Virus record (IMG/VR): IMGVR_UViG_3300036781_000123
Location: 1-33,843 of that record
Strand: one strand, 5' to 3'
DNA length: 33,843 nucleotides
Source: a virus
This document shows, one piece after another, positions 1-33,712 of the stretch; position 1 is the first letter of the stretch; every line of letters begins with the position of its first letter. The notes beneath the pieces are model-generated. The model searched no databases. It had not been told where the DNA came from and saw only the letters and a list, made by a program, of their open reading frames with translations. The translations under genes were made by a program, and so were the position numbers.

Positions 1-470
1 ACTGAGCTATCAACGGAGGACTTCATTGTGTCAGCCGCATATTGATCCATCTCACCACGTTCATGATTGTAGAGCGTTGTCATGATGGTGTTGCGGCGGC
101 TAGCGGCGATTTTCAAGAATGCATCACGCTGGTCATCATTGCCGAGGCTGTCAGAAATAGCCTGCGTATCCTGATCATATTGATTTCCAAGTTCATGCGG
201 AACGCCAAACGCATCCTTGCCTTTTTTGGCAAGAGCGCCGGTTGTTGGATCAAAGATATTCTTCGCCTCCCAATCATTAAGGGACGTCTGCGCTGACATA
301 AGCTGGTTGTTATCGGCATTGGCTTTTGCTTCTTGATAAACTCCCAGCGCTGCCTTGGCGAGATTGGTGTATCCAGACGTATCGATGGCAGGCAGTGACG
401 CGCTGATGCCATTATTGGGCATCGGCTGCGTTTTAACTTGGTCAAGAACAGGGACTTGAAGGTTTGCCAT
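1..470 (-). CDS. Internal virion / DNA-ejection protein, N-terminal part (runs off left edge)
   Basis: An open frame starts with ATG at 470 and stays open to base 1, giving the first 156 residues of a larger protein. It begins MANLQVPVLDQ and contains a region near residues 70-95 (DWEAKNIFDPTTGALAKKG) of the type seen near the N-termini of large podoviral internal virion proteins, where it precedes long helical regions. A GGGGAAG ribosome site lies just upstream, and the start sits 2 bases from the stop of the gp14-like gene, so the two are coupled. By position it corresponds to T7 gp15/gp16, the core proteins ejected into the periplasm at infection. The role is inferred from gene order and that short motif; no catalytic domain is visible in the part present. 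Confidence 0.7.
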   Translation of the reverse strand, partial: MANLQVPVLDQVKTQPMPNNGISASLPAIDTSGYTNLAKAALGVYQEAKANADNNQLMSAQTSLNDWEAKNIFDPTTGALAKKGKDAFGVPHELGNQYDQDTQAISDSLGNDDQRDAFLKIAASRRNTIMTTLYNHERGEMDQYAADTMKSSVDSS

Positions 471-471
471 G

Positions 472-1056
472 TTACTTCCCCGAATTTCCGCTTGGGCCAC
501 CAGACCCAACATTATTGCCAGCGCCGCTGTTAGGGTTATCACCACCGCCGCCGCCACCGCCGAAACCACCGGCACCTTTAAACCCGCCGACAAGCGTGCT
601 TGCCCCCGTGCTAAAAGCACTAATGAGGCCTTGGGTGCGTGAATTGCTTGCCGCAAATTGATTGCCGATGGCCTGATCCTGTGCGCTTGTTGCGTTGATC
701 TTATAGCCGTACGCTTCGCGTTCGGCATTGTTGCGTACCGTGAGAACATTTAATTCTCCCATTTGCGTATTCTGATCCTGCAACAAACCGGCAGAACCTT
801 TATCGGCAAGCAACCCATTGCTTCCGGCTTCGGAGCGAAGCGTGGCATTCTGCGCCTTATATTGCAACCGTGCTTGGCTTGCCGCATCAGCACCACGCTG
901 CTCGGCATCTGTCGCCGCTTGGTTCTGAATGTCAGCATTTTGCTGCGCCACTTTTGCTGCGTAGCTTTGCTGTTGCGCTTGTGCGTCACCCGCTGATTTT
1001 GCTGCATAAGCTGAGATGGCCGCAACGACAACAAGGGCAACAAGTGGTGCACACAT
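472..1056 (-). CDS. gp14-like internal virion protein
   Basis: 194 residues. It has a hydrophobic N-terminus (about residues 4-20, MCAPLVALVVVAAISAYAAK), then a long Ala/Gln-rich helical stretch (about 20-150) and a Gly-rich disordered tail ending around GGGGGGGDNPNSG. This is the usual pattern of podoviral internal virion protein B (T7 gp14), which is ejected first and forms an outer-membrane channel. The ribosome site is AAGGAATTAACT before ATG at 1056. It sits between the gp13-like gene and the large internal virion protein, the same order as in T7. Sequence is low in complexity, so the assignment rests on position, composition and the N-terminal hydrophobic segment. Confidence 0.75.
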   Translation of the reverse strand: MCAPLVALVVVAAISAYAAKSAGDAQAQQQSYAAKVAQQNADIQNQAATDAEQRGADAASQARLQYKAQNATLRSEAGSNGLLADKGSAGLLQDQNTQMGELNVLTVRNNAEREAYGYKINATSAQDQAIGNQFAASNSRTQGLISAFSTGASTLVGGFKGAGGFGGGGGGGDNPNSGAGNNVGSGGPSGNSGK

Positions 1057-10476: not shown

Positions 10477-11829
10477 CTAGTTTGATGACATAACTTTACG
10501 CACGTGTGGTTCGGCGACGTAGAGCGTTGCCCCACCACCCGCTGACAAACCAACCTGCACGCTACCGAAATGCTGCCCCGATGCATTCAAGTTAAGCGGC
10601 AAGATGAATGGTTGCCCTTTAATCACACCATCAAGCGTTGTGATACCGAGGTAATCGCTCGCGTCAGCATTGTAGTTAGCGGTCGCAAACCAATTACCAA
10701 GCGATGTAACTTCCGCTTGATATCCGACTGTAAGCGCCGAAACTGTGCCACTTGATGTTGTGATCGCAATCTCAGATGAGCATACGAATGGGCCTTGACC
10801 AGCGTAACTGGCTGAAATCGCAGGCGATGGAGTTGAGAACGACATGTAGAAAATATCACTCACAAGACCTGTGGTGTTATCCAGCACAATCTTTTGTACG
10901 TTACCCTGACGCCCATCGCCGAATGTCTTCGGATAGGTTGCCGCGAGCGACGCACGTGTGACGATTGAACCAACACCTGAAATGCCACTGCCGGTCAAGC
11001 GCGCAGCGAATGCGTTATCTGCCCATGTACCTGTGGCACCCGTACCAGTAAAACCACCCGTGCCACAAAGAAGTGGGTTCCGCGTGATAACTGAAAGATC
11101 ACCATTTGTGCCACCATCACCACCACCGCCAACATGACGACGGTGATTTGGAATGAGTGGGTCAAGCAGAGCGGCAAGGCCAGCAGCCGCTAAACCAGCG
11201 CCGAAAGCGTTGGGATGGATACTGTCTGAAAGAACCGTCGTCGAAAGCGGAACGCCGTTATAGGCATTTGCCGCGCTCGATACGTTGGCGAAGTAAGACC
11301 ATTGATCGAATACAATCAGGCCATTGCCACGTGTTGCGACATCGCGCCAATAGTTTGAAAGAGCGATCAAGCCCTGAATATTGGCCTGTGTGTAGCCATT
11401 GCCACGTGGAATATCGAGAGCCAAGATGACTTGAATATTGTTGTCATTGGCCCACTTTATCATAACGTGGGTGTCTTCAATGCCCTTCGCTGTGGGAATG
11501 TTGTTGCTTGGGTTGTTTGAATGGCAATCGAGATAAATATAACCCGGAACATGGCCGTTGATGTTCATGGCTGCGGCAAAGCGTGCACGGATTTGGTCGG
11601 TGCGATTGCCAATGATGCCTTGTTTGGAGATCACATCGAAGCGACCACCAAGCAGAATGTTGGCGCGATGGAAGATGCACTTGCTGTATGTAAGGGCGGA
11701 AGAACCATAAACGCCGGGATTGCCGGGCGTACCCCAATAGCTATCGGGCGTGCCGTTATAATCGATAAAGCTATGCCCTACCAAAACGACGGTATTCTTG
11801 CGTGTCATTGGGTAAAGCTGATCAGCCAT
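10477..11829 (-). CDS. SGNH/GDSL-type hydrolase, candidate virion esterase
   Basis: 450 residues. The N-terminal about 220 residues show SGNH blocks: VVLVGHSF with Ser20 as nucleophile, GIIGNRTDQI (residues 71-80) as the Gly block, DCHSNN (about 101-106) as the Asn block, and SDSIHPN with Asp202 and His205 completing the triad. A Gly-rich linker (RRHVGGGGDGGTNGD) leads to a C-terminal beta-rich region of about 220 residues of the type found in receptor-binding or carbohydrate-binding proteins. Phage SGNH domains often deacetylate surface polysaccharide. It lies between terminase and portal, an unusual place for a tail enzyme. ATG at 11829 has AGGAGAACGCT upstream. Confidence 0.8.
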   Translation of the reverse strand: MADQLYPMTRKNTVVLVGHSFIDYNGTPDSYWGTPGNPGVYGSSALTYSKCIFHRANILLGGRFDVISKQGIIGNRTDQIRARFAAAMNINGHVPGYIYLDCHSNNPSNNIPTAKGIEDTHVMIKWANDNNIQVILALDIPRGNGYTQANIQGLIALSNYWRDVATRGNGLIVFDQWSYFANVSSAANAYNGVPLSTTVLSDSIHPNAFGAGLAAAGLAALLDPLIPNHRRHVGGGGDGGTNGDLSVITRNPLLCGTGGFTGTGATGTWADNAFAARLTGSGISGVGSIVTRASLAATYPKTFGDGRQGNVQKIVLDNTTGLVSDIFYMSFSTPSPAISASYAGQGPFVCSSEIAITTSSGTVSALTVGYQAEVTSLGNWFATANYNADASDYLGITTLDGVIKGQPFILPLNLNASGQHFGSVQVGLSAGGGATLYVAEPHVRKVMSSN

Positions 11830-17305: not shown

Positions 17306-17795
17306 TCCTATATCAAATGCAGCCCGCGAGTTGGCCGTTATGATAATTTTCAAAGAAACATCATCAGACGCTGATTTTAATCTGACATACGATGATCTTG
17401 ATCATCGTCGGGACGACGCTGACAAAATAGCTGGGATAGCTCAACTCTACTTCGATGCGGTGAGGAAAGCGGCGCTGGAAGAGGCGGCTGACTTGATTAG
17501 TCATGGGAATTCACAGTGTGATTGGACAAATTACGCGAAGGACAGAATTAGAAATGCGGCACGCATCCGCGCCCTCATCGACCAACCCGCTGCCGCAACA
17601 CAAGTGAGCGACGATAAGGATGCGGAGATTAAGCGGCTAAGAGAGGCCTTGGAAGAAGCTGCCCATACAATCCTAATAGCAATACTGTTGAGTAACCTAC
17701 ACATCAACCTAACGGAGAACGACTATGAAATTCGAGATCAAATCACGCTGGACAATGAACACGATCTTTACCGCAGAAATCGACGCCAAGTTTGA
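17295..17795 (+). CDS. Hypothetical helical protein
   Basis: 166 residues from ATG 17295 ([20 protein letters not shown]). Two Ala/Arg-rich helical segments ([20 protein letters not shown], and [15 protein letters not shown]) and a short coiled coil ([18 protein letters not shown]) resemble early phage proteins of unknown function often annotated only by this AALEEAA pattern. The final 24 residues overlap the pentapeptide gene in another frame and may not be conserved. No catalytic motif visible. Confidence 0.6.
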
Positions 17796-18507
17796 AAACA
17801 GTCCGCCGAGTGTCAAACTAGGAGAGGCCGTCAAGAATGCCAACCTGAGCGGTGCCGACCTGCGCGATGCCGACCTGAGCGGTGCCGACCTGAGCGGTGC
17901 CAACCTGAGCGGTGCCGACCTGCGCGATGCCAACCTGCGCGATGCCAACCTGAGCGGTGCCTACCTGCGCGATGCCAACCTGCGCGGTGCCGACCTGCGC
18001 GATGCCGACCTGCGCGATGCCAACCTGCGCGATGCCAACCTGCGCGGTGCCGACCTGCGCGATGCCAACCTGCGCGGTGCCGACCTGAGCGGTGCCAACC
18101 TGAGCGGTGCCGACCTGCGCGATGCCAACCTGCGCGATGCCGACCTGCGCGATGCCAACCTGAGCGGTGCCGACCTGAGCGGTTCACTAGATGGCGTTCC
18201 CTTCATCAAAGATATTCACCAAACAATATACGCAGCAGCCTCACAGAAAGATTGCCTTGATATGGGTTCATGGCATTGCGAGACGACACATTGCCGGGCT
18301 GGCTGGGTTGTTACCTTGGCAGGAGAAGCCGGTAAGGCGATGGAATTCTGCTTGGGAACACCAGCCGCAGCGGCGCTGATCTACATGAGGAGCGATCCGG
18401 CGCTCGAAAAGGTGCCGAATTTCTACGCGACTAACTCGGAAGCTCTGTCCGACATGAAGCGCTTGGCTGAGGCTGAGGCCTCTGCTCCGAAACCAACGGT
18501 GGAGTAG
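17725..18507 (+). CDS. Pentapeptide-repeat protein with C-terminal Cys-rich domain
   Basis: 260 residues. After an N-terminal beta segment (1-36), residues 39-153 are 23 uninterrupted pentapeptides of the form A(D/N)LxG or A(D/N)LRD, predicting a right-handed quadrilateral beta helix about six coils long. Residues 154-260 form a separate domain with [19 protein letters not shown] and a helical end ([15 protein letters not shown]). Pentapeptide helices can mimic DNA and protect or inhibit gyrase (Qnr, MfpA); the CRAGW-type C-domain occurs with such repeats in phage and bacterial proteins of unknown role. Ribosome site GGAGAACGACT before ATG 17725. The repeat DNA is nearly identical from unit to unit (see repeat feature). 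Confidence 0.88.
17839..18183 (+). repeat. Array of 23 tandem 15-base repeats (pentapeptide-coding)
   Basis: Each unit reads GCC (A/G)AC CTG (A/C)GC G(G/A)T. Every Ala is GCC, Leu CTG, Ser AGC, Arg CGC, Gly GGT and third-position Asp GAT. One unit has TAC (Tyr) in place of Asp/Asn. Units differ essentially at only three two-state positions, so the array has been homogenised by recent duplication or recombination. The complementary strand is also open in two frames, a by-product of the repeat. Confidence 0.95.
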
Positions 18508-30986: not shown

Positions 30987-31198
30987 CAAAAGATGAAATC
31001 ATCGAAGAGCAAGACTTGCAGATTACGACATGGCTCAATGCGTGGAAAGAGGCGCGTGAAGCTCTGACTATCATTTATATCAATGATAAAACAATCTCAC
31101 CAAGCCTTATAGCGGCAGAGGCCTTGGATAGGGTTGAGGTGATATTTAAAGATTATATCTCTAAGTCAGCGCTTCCCCAGAACAAATCGGCTAAGTAA
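30983..31198 (+). CDS. Hypothetical protein, last gene of the rightward block
   Basis: 71 residues from ATG 30983 (MTKDEIIEEQDLQITTWLNA), ATGA overlap with the Ref-like gene. Helical, with EAREALTIIYINDKTISPSL. Its last 33 bases overlap the end of the opposite-strand o-spanin gene, and there is no terminator between the convergent transcripts. Function unknown. Confidence 0.6.
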   Translation: MTKDEIIEEQDLQITTWLNAWKEAREALTIIYINDKTISPSLIAAEALDRVEVIFKDYISKSALPQNKSAK

Positions 31199-31423
31199 CT
31201 CGTGACGCTTTCCGCAGTCGATCAGGGCTGATGTGTTTGCGATCAGGGCGTCAGCAAGTGATCCCATTGTGTCATTGCGCAACTTAACCGGTGCGGGGCA
31301 ATCCGCTGTCAGGTTCGCAGGCGCACTAACGTCCTGAACGTCCAACGGCTGTATCGGTGTAAAGCTGCATGAAGGCAGCACCAGAATGGCAAGTGCTAAA
31401 AGAAGAATTTGCTTTTTGAACAT
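31166..31423 (-). CDS. o-spanin (Rz1-like lipoprotein)
   Basis: 85 residues from ATG 31423 with GGAGG 7 bases upstream. The signal (MFKKQILLLALAILVLPSCS) ends in a lipobox L16-P17-S18-C19, so the mature protein is an outer-membrane lipoprotein. The Pro-containing segment after the Cys (FTPIQPLDVQDVSAP) is usual for Rz1. The gene begins inside the i-spanin gene in another frame, the classical overlapped Rz/Rz1 layout. The mature chain (67 residues) is longer than that of lambda Rz1. Confidence 0.85.
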   Translation of the reverse strand: MFKKQILLLALAILVLPSCSFTPIQPLDVQDVSAPANLTADCPAPVKLRNDTMGSLADALIANTSALIDCGKRHELLSRFVLGKR

Positions 31424-31697
31424 CGGCGAGCCTCCGGTTAATGTCGTCCATTTGTGCGGCGTGCGCCGTGCGTTCTTTCTCATAATCCGACGCCGATTTA
31501 TCGGCAGCTTCTTGTAGTTCCTGACGGCGTTTTTCAAAATCGTTATGTTCAGCAACCATCTTGGCGGTGCAGTCTGCCTCAGCAGATTTGTGGCCGGTGT
31601 GGTAGCCGAACCCAAACAGCCCGACGATCAGAAGAACGATCAATATCGCCTTCCAGTTATCCTTGGCGAATGTCAGCGCCGCGATCAGGAATGGCAT
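31326..31697 (-). CDS. i-spanin (Rz-like)
   Basis: 123 residues. N-terminal membrane anchor at about 15-33 (WKAILIVLLIVGLFGFGYHT), then a periplasmic coiled coil (AEHNDFEKRRQELQEAADKS, ASDYEKERTAHAAQMDDINR) and a short tail with one Cys. It pairs with the o-spanin to fuse inner and outer membranes in the last step of lysis. The 3' end contains the start of the o-spanin gene; the 5' end overlaps the small membrane protein gene. Confidence 0.86.
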   Translation of the reverse strand: MPFLIAALTFAKDNWKAILIVLLIVGLFGFGYHTGHKSAEADCTAKMVAEHNDFEKRRQELQEAADKSASDYEKERTAHAAQMDDINRRLADVQKANSSFSTCHSGAAFMQLYTDTAVGRSGR

Positions 31698-31920
31698 TGC
31701 CGTACTTCCACTTCATAAACAGGGTTGCGATGTGACTGCCGCCGACAACAGCACCGTAAGCTGCGAGCAGTTCCCAGCTTACACTTTGTTGTTCAAGCAT
31801 CACCTTCGACATAATGATGTTGGCAACATGAAGCCAGAGTTTTGTCGCTGAAAGCCTGCCGCTCTTCTCATCAGTGAAGAAGTCTAGCACGCATACTTTA
31901 TATGGCCCCACTGAGATCAT
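31657..31920 (-). CDS. Small membrane protein of the lysis cassette (holin candidate)
   Basis: 87 residues. The phrase TDEKSGRLSATKLWLHVANI followed by two hydrophobic segments (about 26-43 and 50-69, WELLAAYGAVVGGSHIATLF) and a charged end (KWKYGNAIPDRG) is a common pattern of phage proteins next to lysis genes, often annotated as holin or as a conserved membrane protein. It is coupled to the DUF5675 gene by ATGA. Either this or the XhlA-like product could be the holin. Confidence 0.65.
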   Translation of the reverse strand: MISVGPYKVCVLDFFTDEKSGRLSATKLWLHVANIIMSKVMLEQQSVSWELLAAYGAVVGGSHIATLFMKWKYGNAIPDRGADIRQG

Positions 31921-32324
31921 ATAACACCAGAGACCACCAGTTCAAACTCATCGGGAAGGTTTTCGCGCAGCATTTGCAACGTCTGCACCGAATTAATAAC
32001 AGCGGGCTTACCGCCAACAACACCAAAATCAGAGCCGACAAGAATGCAGCCATCGGTGTCTTTGATTGTGTTGCCGTTATGAATGAGGATTGCTTGGCGG
32101 TTTGGAACGCCGACAAGTTCCCACACGTTATGGAACTTCGTGCCGTCATGTGGGGTACACACGTAAGAACTCTGCGGGATGCAGGACTTCATTGGCTGGT
32201 TATCTTTCCAAGGAAGCTCACAAGTAACGGCGATGCGCGTTAGCTTGTCGTCAATGATGCGATAGAGGATGCCGAACGTACCGTTGTCTGATGTCTCGCC
32301 GCGAATGAGTGTGAGCTGTTCCAT
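31917..32324 (-). CDS. DUF5675 protein, candidate cell-wall enzyme
   Basis: 135 residues. DUF5675 landmarks: CELPWKDNQPMKSCIPQSSY, FHNVWELVGVPNRQAILIHN, then GNTIKDTDGCILVGSDFG. The conserved His82 in IHNGN and Cys93 in TDGCILVG, 11 residues apart, recall the His and Cys of L,D-transpeptidase-type folds (HG...S-x-GC), though I know of no proof of activity. It lies between an XhlA-like membrane protein and a holin-like protein, where a phage normally has its endolysin. No other muralytic gene is in the window. The start shares bases with the upstream stop (TAATG). Confidence 0.8.
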   Translation of the reverse strand: MEQLTLIRGETSDNGTFGILYRIIDDKLTRIAVTCELPWKDNQPMKSCIPQSSYVCTPHDGTKFHNVWELVGVPNRQAILIHNGNTIKDTDGCILVGSDFGVVGGKPAVINSVQTLQMLRENLPDEFELVVSGVI

Positions 32325-32665
32325 TAATGGAGTGCCTTAATAAGGCCGAATACAGTCCCACAGGCTCCAAGGAATGAAATAATATAGCGAAGCGTCATGT
32401 CAACACCCGCCATCTTGTTGAACTTGGATTGAAGTTCATTAAGCGACACGGAGATGCTTGTGTTGACTGTTTTTTGATCGGAGGCTGAAAGGCTCTGCGC
32501 GCGCTTCACGTCGGCAAGCTTTTCATTGATGCCTGCGTATCGTTCGGCGCAGATTTTTTCATGGGCTTCGATAGACATCGTGGCCTTTTCAGCATCGTGC
32601 TTGGCCTCCGTCGCTACATCGTGAGCATTCTGTGCCAAGCGGTGAACGTCATTAAGGTCAGTCAT
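32324..32665 (-). CDS. XhlA-like membrane protein (holin-associated)
   Basis: 113 residues from ATG 32665 (MTDLNDVHRLAQNAHDVATE). A long amphipathic helix (residues 5-85, with EHEKICAERYAGINEKLADV and LQSKFNKMAGVDM) is followed by one C-terminal membrane segment (YIISFLGACGTVFGLIKAL). This is the plan of XhlA/haemolysin-type proteins found beside holins. It is translated just before the DUF5675 gene. Confidence 0.7.
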   Translation of the reverse strand: MTDLNDVHRLAQNAHDVATEAKHDAEKATMSIEAHEKICAERYAGINEKLADVKRAQSLSASDQKTVNTSISVSLNELQSKFNKMAGVDMTLRYIISFLGACGTVFGLIKALH

Positions 32666-32737
32666 CATTATACCTGATTATGGCGGCACCTTGGCAACGG
32701 CAGATGAACATAAAATTCTTATAATTTCAAGTCGTCA

Positions 32738-33622
32738 TTACCCATAAATGGTCTTTTGCCCTGACAAGAATGTTTCAGTATGTGTGCCGCTACCAGAGTT
32801 AACAAGTTTACGATACCAACCAGCAGGAACATCGGCACAAATCTGCCCCTTAACGACCTGTATGCTGTTCAAAATAATGGCAAGAGTGATGGTTTGGTCG
32901 CTCTCGAACGTGCCGACAGTTGTCCAGTTTGCTTCGGTGGCGTCATTGGTAGCGCAGATTTTCAGAGCAATGGCTGACGTGCCGGGGCCGCCAATGGTTG
33001 ATGTCGTCGATGTCGAGACTGAATAACGAACCGTGCTGTCCTTAGTGGCATGCACTTGCGCACCGGTCGCGCCGGTCCCAGAAAAAGCAATTGTATCGAC
33101 CGACGTCGTGCGCGTTACAACAGGAATTGTTGGGAAAGGTTGCCATGACTTATCGCCGCGCCAATACTGCGCTGTCGTTCCTGCTGTAATTGTTGGTTCT
33201 TTTCCAGCAAGACCGGATGTGAGCGATCCCTGAGTAGCGTAAGTGCTGGCTGCTGATGCCGACGTCAGATATGGCGTTAATGCCGAACCTACGAGGTAGC
33301 CTGCATCATTTGCCAATGCTGAGATATTGCTGCCGTTAAGGGCCGTCACGGCGCGCGACGGCGTAAAGTAAAGATGAACAATGCCCTCTGGAAGCGCATC
33401 GGTAGTTGTGGGGATTGATGCGTACATTGATGCAAGGGTGGCATTACATGAATTAAGCGACGTGATGACGTCCTCAACCCACTGTTCTGTTCCCGGCATT
33501 CTGCGCATATATCCACGCAGACGGTTTTCTGCCTCTTCTGTAATAACCTGTGGTGCGCTCATCGTTGGACGCGCGGCCTGCGTTAGGCAGATGGTTTCTG
33601 GTTTCTTTTGGAACAGTCGCAT
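32738..33622 (-). CDS. Tail fibre / receptor-binding protein
   Basis: 294 residues from ATG 33622, preceded by AAGGGG. The N-terminus (to about 75) contains EEAENRLRGYMRRMPGTEQW and then EGIVHLYFTPSRAVTALNGS, a repeated formula of phage tail fibres (LYFTxxRa...L). The middle is Ala/Ser/Thr-rich (LTSASAASTYATQGSLTSGL) and leads to GKEPTITAGTTAQYWRGDKS. The C-terminal about 120 residues are a beta-rich head (TVRYSVSTSTTSTIGGPGTS, LAIILNSIQVVKGQICADVP, AGWYRKLV). Likely trimeric and involved in host binding. It precedes the lysis genes on the same strand. Confidence 0.8.
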   Translation of the reverse strand: MRLFQKKPETICLTQAARPTMSAPQVITEEAENRLRGYMRRMPGTEQWVEDVITSLNSCNATLASMYASIPTTTDALPEGIVHLYFTPSRAVTALNGSNISALANDAGYLVGSALTPYLTSASAASTYATQGSLTSGLAGKEPTITAGTTAQYWRGDKSWQPFPTIPVVTRTTSVDTIAFSGTGATGAQVHATKDSTVRYSVSTSTTSTIGGPGTSAIALKICATNDATEANWTTVGTFESDQTITLAIILNSIQVVKGQICADVPAGWYRKLVNSGSGTHTETFLSGQKTIYG

Positions 33623-33712
33623 CACTTGCCCCTTCTTAGATGTTAGGAATTAGTTATCTGCGAACGCAGGGCGCTTATTTGGTCATCAATCGCCTGAATG
33701 CTTTCACGTGAC

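Follow-up and report, generated by a model that had tools for sequence, protein, structure and literature searches.

A DUF5675 protein in the endolysin slot of a viral lysis cassette: a candidate endolysin family with possible L,D-transpeptidase-like chemistry

Introduction

Which protein opens the cell wall in a phage whose lysis cassette carries a protein of unassigned function where an endolysin would be expected? The question is raised by IMG/VR record IMGVR_UViG_3300036781_000123, whose positions 1 to 33,843 were analysed here as a single stretch of 33,843 nucleotides (the window). Endolysin families are thought to be well catalogued. A DUF5675 endolysin would therefore be an overlooked family, missed because its members are filed as proteins of unknown function, and its recognition would bear on how lysis is achieved by phages, some microviruses among them, in which no endolysin can be recognised.

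The family (PF18925, phrog_1501), to which the window protein has a full-length match, is assigned no function in either Pfam or PHROGs, and two papers name it as an annotation only, with no function assigned (PMC9229204, PMC10671443). In the literature searched, which leaves out most subscription journals, no paper was found that gives DUF5675 an endolysin role; an L,D-carboxypeptidase label on crAss-like DUF5675 records is already known.

Results

A DUF5675 gene lies within a spanin-containing cassette

The gene at 31917-32324 (minus strand) encodes, as had been noted from the DNA alone, a 135-residue DUF5675 protein (PF18925, E-value 2.6e-28; phrog_1501, 1.7e-28), which scores 98.6 bits against a gathering score of 26.7 and covers positions 1-112 of the 114-position profile. 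All genes of the cassette are on the minus strand. In order of transcription, a fibre-like protein (32738-33625; phrog_31472, 8.2e-20, function unknown), whose role is suggested by position and composition, adjoins the cassette on its upstream side and is followed by a 114-residue protein with a coiled coil and one C-terminal transmembrane (TM) segment (32324-32668; weak MotA_ExbB match, 0.0011, and hydropathy), the DUF5675 protein, an 87-residue predicted membrane protein (31657-31920; phrog_1322 'membrane protein', 2.6e-9), an Rz-like i-spanin (31326-31697; phrog_1327, 2.1e-10, and many other Rz-like spanin PHROGs) and an Rz1-like o-spanin lipoprotein of 85 residues with the lipobox LPSC (31166-31423; PF23793 LysC, 2.8e-7; phrog_456, 1.1e-7). 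The DUF5675 gene overlaps both of its neighbours, and the Rz1-like gene overlaps the Rz-like gene out of frame, its start being read from the sequence at 31423 and not from the longer TTG open reading frame that extends to 31615.

The spanins of the cassette order proposed in the earlier note are thus supported by PHROG and Pfam matches, and its labels 'XhlA-like' and 'holin-like' are plausible ones that no profile confirms. By hydropathy the DUF5675 protein has no hydrophobic N-terminal segment, so that a holin should be needed; the product of 31657-31920 is the candidate for this role, and the 114-residue protein may be a holin or a holin partner.

Canonical endolysins are absent from the window

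Cell-wall hydrolase families were found in none of 53 other open reading frames scanned with Pfam, 18 of which were also compared with PHROGs. The window was likewise negative when searched at genome level for GH24, GH19, Amidase_2, M15_4, M15_3, GH108 and SLT. This upholds the previous observation that the window holds no canonical endolysin, with one correction at its edge: the product of 3-749 (minus strand) is labelled 'endolysin' by PHROGs (phrog_10475, 2.3e-24; phrog_1044, 7e-23) and is a contig-edge fragment that covers the N-terminus of a large virion protein, a 'structural lysozyme' or internal protein. Its homology sets in at about residue 98 (near position 458), about 150 homologous residues being present, and tblastn relates it to proteins of Pseudomonas phage AF, phiV10 and Cobetia phage Carin1. 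In relatives, among them AF and Carin1, the protein is a 'structural lysozyme' whose SLT domain maps beyond the portion present here, and the catalytic domain of the window protein would accordingly fall outside the window.

The window is an IMG/VR fragment of an incomplete genome. Its portal, capsid, Bbp16 and Bbp19-type proteins place the phage among epsilon15/phiV10/BPP-1-type podoviruses; the portal protein used alone as a query returned no relatives, which were found with a portal alignment. The late genes of phiV10, AF and Carin1 run from tail proteins through small internal virion proteins, the structural lysozyme/internal virion protein (roughly 700-840 residues), one or more large proteins and the tail spike to a short lysis block, which includes a canonical endolysin. 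As the left edge of the window lies inside the structural lysozyme and the right edge in fibre-like genes, the gap matches what is left of the lysozyme, together with the large protein and a portion of the fibre region; and since these relatives encode their endolysin downstream of the tail spike, in the slot that DUF5675 has here, none would be expected in the missing part. It should hold the rest of the virion-associated lysozyme, and synteny makes it unlikely that it hides a canonical endolysin.

DUF5675 replaces the endolysin gene in three phage architectures

The slot held by DUF5675 in the window is filled by a GH19 endolysin in phiV10, by a GH108 endolysin followed by Rz/Rz1 in AF (both families confirmed) and by an annotated amidase in Carin1. 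A second architecture is provided by Vibrio phages PE002 and PE001, in which an interval of an HP1-type tail operon, between the sheath/tube genes and a homologue of HP1 orf26, contains a small YbiI-like gene, DUF5675, a 3-TM holin (Holin_3TM, annotated in PE002) and a small TM/lipoprotein gene; the matching interval of HP1 contains hol, lys and Rz. In the Mu-like Vibrio phage martha 12B12, DUF5675 lies between homologues of gp16 and gp27, where Mu has lys and Rz. Synteny in three unrelated tailed-phage architectures therefore strongly supports the earlier proposal that DUF5675 takes the endolysin position. The canonical endolysins of these slots (phiV10 GH19, AF GH108, Carin1 amidase, HP1 Lys and Mu Lys) resemble DUF5675 in being late, holin-associated and placed between tail genes or holin and spanins; their sequences, in contrast, are unrelated to it, and DUF5675 matches none of their families. 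Contig G059, whose gene order is similar to that of the window (virion SLT protein, fibre-like protein, DUF5675, membrane protein), was dropped as a close relative of the window phage, blastp showing DUF5675 as the sole shared gene.

DUF5675 and canonical endolysins are anticorrelated

GH24, GH19, Amidase_2 and M15_4 were searched in all 80 records, and M15_3 and GH108 in the DUF5675 records and in those controls that had no earlier match, the controls being 23 epsilon15-type relatives that have no DUF5675. At least one of these six families was present in 16 of the 23 controls, in none of 20 DUF5675 isolate or reference records and in one of 36 DUF5675 IMG/VR contigs (GH108 in G039), other lysis families lying outside the six and possibly being present. 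The Fisher p-values for isolates versus controls (9e-7, or 0.0015 with the GH19 control lineage counted once) are indicative, because the controls match one lineage only and the records, some of them fragments, are related to one another. SLT was found within virion proteins of about 700-890 residues in several controls and one DUF5675 contig, and as a 133-residue open reading frame in DUF5675 contig G034. Canonical endolysins are hence nearly absent from DUF5675 genomes.

A small membrane protein is the usual neighbour

A single tblastn query matched DUF5675 in 186 of 50,697 phage records, and all 56 related viral proteins that were scanned match PF18925. A small TM protein is immediately beside DUF5675 in 69 of 97 loci, an approximate count as adjacency was taken from a simple chain of open reading frames, against a background of 25% of open reading frames (100-219 residues) that understates chance for 'either side', each gene having two neighbours. 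Of the Pfam families represented in 133 proteins adjacent to DUF5675, GTA_holin_3TM occurs most often; one neighbour is a Hydrolase_2 cell-wall hydrolase. Compact pairs of DUF5675 with a holin or TM protein occur in Vibrio phage 1.122.A (holin_3TM), 230E39-1, 1.165 and 1.176, and in Vibrio siphophages such pairs either close an operon or form an island flanked by genes of the opposite strand.

The family extends to other genome types. In the crAss-like phage cr10_1, structural genes lie on either side of DUF5675; in another crAss-like phage, cr60_1, the gene (L010:5842-6303) contains an in-frame TAG, consistent with the TAG recoding of some crAss-like phages. Microviruses of about 5-6 kb carry DUF5675 and have no annotated holin, a hydropathy scan of their open reading frames for one returning many chance frames; in three microvirus genomes of 4.9-6.3 kb (L004, L007 and L146), the gene makes up about 7-8% of the length. 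DUF5675 domains are also found in viral proteins of more than 800 residues, which suggests that some members may be virion parts; in Ralstonia phage RP31, the domain lies within a protein of more than 1200 residues of this large phage (BFVD A0A1L7N1E2_2). Bacterial genes with the DUF5675 motif (L231-L310) are mostly from Bacteroidota, and also come from Rickettsiales, Elusimicrobia, Clostridia, Fibrobacterota and Gracilibacteria contigs.

Invariant His and Cys residues in a confidently predicted model

His82 (within IHNGN) and Cys93 (within DTDGCILVG), which had been described as invariant-looking, are invariant together with N85, G92 and S112 in a set of 22 sequences (A12) that was not selected by motif. 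Only this set was used, since the pattern with which 80 viral loci were gathered fixes H/G/N/D/G/C/I, and invariance among those loci was not counted. Among 75 sequences, most of them motif-selected, the distance from His to Cys is 11 in 73, and Ser or Thr precedes xGC in 60, with H and GC[ILVF] retained; the position directly before GC has no conserved His, being occupied by D/E/R/K and others. DUF5675 thus departs from the L,D-transpeptidase catalytic motif HXX14-17[S/T]HGCh in both its His-Cys distance of 11 and the absence of the middle His. In Vibrio phage vB_VcaS_HC (L139:3474-3908), an insert between the His and the Cys (..GDRALGYKTHSNGCILIG) lengthens the spacing to 19, so that both spacing and sequence resemble those of L,D-transpeptidases.

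AlphaFold2 produced two high-confidence DUF5675 models, with pLDDT values of 96.4 (window protein) and 97.6. They show three N-terminal strands, a strand starting at PxGxY and a strand ending at the His, with the Cys just ahead of the next strand, followed by a helix and a final strand, which is the order of the L,D-transpeptidase core. The fold comparison with YkuD-type enzymes that the earlier note had suggested did not confirm an L,D-transpeptidase fold: none was among the best 50 PDB matches of the two models in Foldseek, a result that is counted as evidence against such a fold. Against viral models, Foldseek returned mainly DUF5675 proteins and then weak 'endolysin' or 'lysin' matches (E-value 0.1-0.2) that were not used as evidence; a sequence search of the PDB with the window protein and two profiles gave no meaningful match.

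Remote similarity to the L,D-transpeptidase superfamily

The window protein itself matched neither YkuD (PF03734) nor Tlde1 (PF10908) in the Pfam search. Among 56 DUF5675 members searched against 24,736 Pfam models at E<0.1, 22 match Tlde1_dom (best 7e-4) and six match YkuD (best 2.3e-3), with matched positions that are collinear and in the same order. The DUF5675 gene of a bee microvirus matches YkuD with an E-value of 7.9e-4 and 11.9 bits (gathering score 23.4), the Tlde1 matches shown individually for DUF5675 relatives are under the 30.1-bit cut-off of PF10908, and none of the matches listed reaches the curated Pfam cut-off of YkuD or Tlde1. Profile-profile alignment of 66 DUF5675 proteins with 18 L,D-transpeptidase domains (hhalign) brought the catalytic His and Cys into register and gave P 5e-4, a score that exceeds those of 200 of 200 column shuffles, one reversed profile and three unrelated profiles; alignment with one Tlde1 domain gave P 0.0035, again above 200 of 200 shuffles, and an earlier alignment with four L,D-transpeptidases only was weak (P 0.06-0.07). 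Independent annotators have labelled crAss-like DUF5675 homologues as L,D-carboxypeptidase/transpeptidase.

Together, these comparisons argue with moderate strength for a remote profile-profile similarity of DUF5675 to the L,D-transpeptidase superfamily in which the catalytic residues are aligned, and point weakly to Tlde1 as its nearest link. The likeness of the His/Cys pair to that of L,D-transpeptidases, as first noted, consequently finds support in sequence (Tlde1_dom and YkuD matches, hhalign and motif order) and none in the Foldseek comparison with the PDB.

Members of the Tlde1 domain family (PF10908), which are antibacterial L,D-transpeptidase/carboxypeptidase effectors of type VI secretion systems (T6SS), show collinear weak matches to DUF5675 at P-x-x-T-Y and H...[ST]xGC. 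The catalytic residues of Tlde1a, H121 and C131, are 10 apart, compared with 11 in DUF5675 (PMC9638812); H129 of Tlde1a, directly before GC, has no counterpart in DUF5675. Unlike Tlde1, DUF5675 is a gene of phage cassettes that has no signal or delivery part, and Tlde1a makes target cells swell and die and does not complete a phage lysis. YkuD shares with DUF5675 the order PxGxY, IHG, [ST]xGC[IV], helix and final strand, whereas DUF5675 has a shorter His-Cys spacing (11) and misses the second His. A precedent for a YkuD domain classed as a phage lytic protein is found in the PhaLP database, where YkuD is a rare class of 10 entries whose record names PF03734, PF10908 and cd16913, DUF5675 being absent from it (PMC8310338). 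Because of the negative Foldseek comparison with the PDB, DUF5675 is not filed here in YkuD or Tlde1; our best inference is that it works like an L,D-type cysteine peptidase.

Discussion

Gene position and family replacement suggest that DUF5675 is probably an endolysin, a cysteine peptidase of peptidoglycan released by a holin. We infer the following course of events. DUF5675 would be a small enzyme of the cytoplasm, lacking both signal and SAR segments; it would be made late, together with a holin-type membrane protein and the Rz/Rz1 spanin pair, and would reach the periplasm once the holin opens the inner membrane. There Cys93, activated by His82 as a base, may attack the L-centre carbonyl of a peptide stem, the likeliest target being the meso-DAP3-D-Ala4 bond that L,D-transpeptidases open; release of the putative Cys93 thioester by hydrolysis would cut stems and cross-links, and the spanins would then breach the outer membrane. 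That the chemistry of the candidate endolysin is L,D-transpeptidase-like is somewhat favoured, with less confidence than the endolysin role itself.

The same likeness admits a different reading, in which DUF5675 is an endolysin and an unrelated small β-rich cysteine peptidase whose H...GC motif arose by convergence. The absence of a PDB fold match (Foldseek, best 50, two models), the lack among the matches listed of any YkuD or Tlde1 match above the curated Pfam cut-off, and a His-Cys spacing and missing middle His that depart from the canonical motif would all be expected of such an enzyme; convergence would nevertheless have to produce collinear matches to the profiles of two families that share a superfamily, an hhalign score above all shuffles, PxGxY, IHxG, [ST]xGC, helix and last strand in the same order, and a His-Cys spacing nearly equal to that of Tlde1a (H121/C131; PMC9638812), and we regard it as rather unlikely, though a serious contender.

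It is unlikely that DUF5675 is instead an accessory of lysis that remodels peptidoglycan or regulates the process (timing, cross-link editing or superinfection exclusion), with lysis left to an endolysin that escaped recognition and lies in the missing part, or to the virion 'structural lysozyme' acting in a second role. In favour of this stand the usual function of L,D-transpeptidases, which is to build or edit cross-links, the incomplete contig with its edge inside the virion lysozyme, and the canonical hydrolases that accompany DUF5675 in a few cases (GH108 in G039, SLT in G034 and the Hydrolase_2 neighbour); yet relatives with the same virion lysozyme keep a separate endolysin in the DUF5675 slot, isolate phages with DUF5675 have none of the six families tested, and in HP1- and Mu-type phages DUF5675 replaces lys and does not stand beside it. 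Very improbable, finally, is a late protein with no part in lysis, a virion component or moron brought near lysis genes by modular chance: domains in virus proteins of more than 800 residues, microviruses with no obvious holin and the structural genes flanking DUF5675 in cr10_1 could be understood in this way, but the repeated pairing with holins, the exchange of lys for DUF5675 at syntenic positions of unrelated phages and the anticorrelation with canonical endolysins speak against it.

Taken as a whole, the reading of DUF5675 as an unrecognised endolysin class with L,D-transpeptidase-type cysteine chemistry, which has independently replaced glycosidase, amidase and zinc-peptidase endolysins in epsilon15-like, HP1-like, Mu-like and other phages and may be the sole lysis enzyme of some microviruses, is a tentative one, its chances falling a little short of even. 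Were the L,D-type chemistry correct, a fold whose normal work is to form cross-links would have given rise to a lysis enzyme, one whose bond specificity is absent from standard endolysins and which might be sensitive to carbapenems.

Other genes of the window

Two further genes of the window stand out. Pentapeptide-repeat proteins can mimic DNA and inhibit gyrase; one is encoded at 17725-18507 (plus strand; PF00805, best match 1.2e-44, assigned to the open reading frame by sequence). Between the terminase and portal genes, an unusual place, a 450-residue open reading frame (10477-11829, minus strand) has a start that resembles an SGNH-type hydrolase and is probably the one behind a match to phrog_6102 'lipase'.
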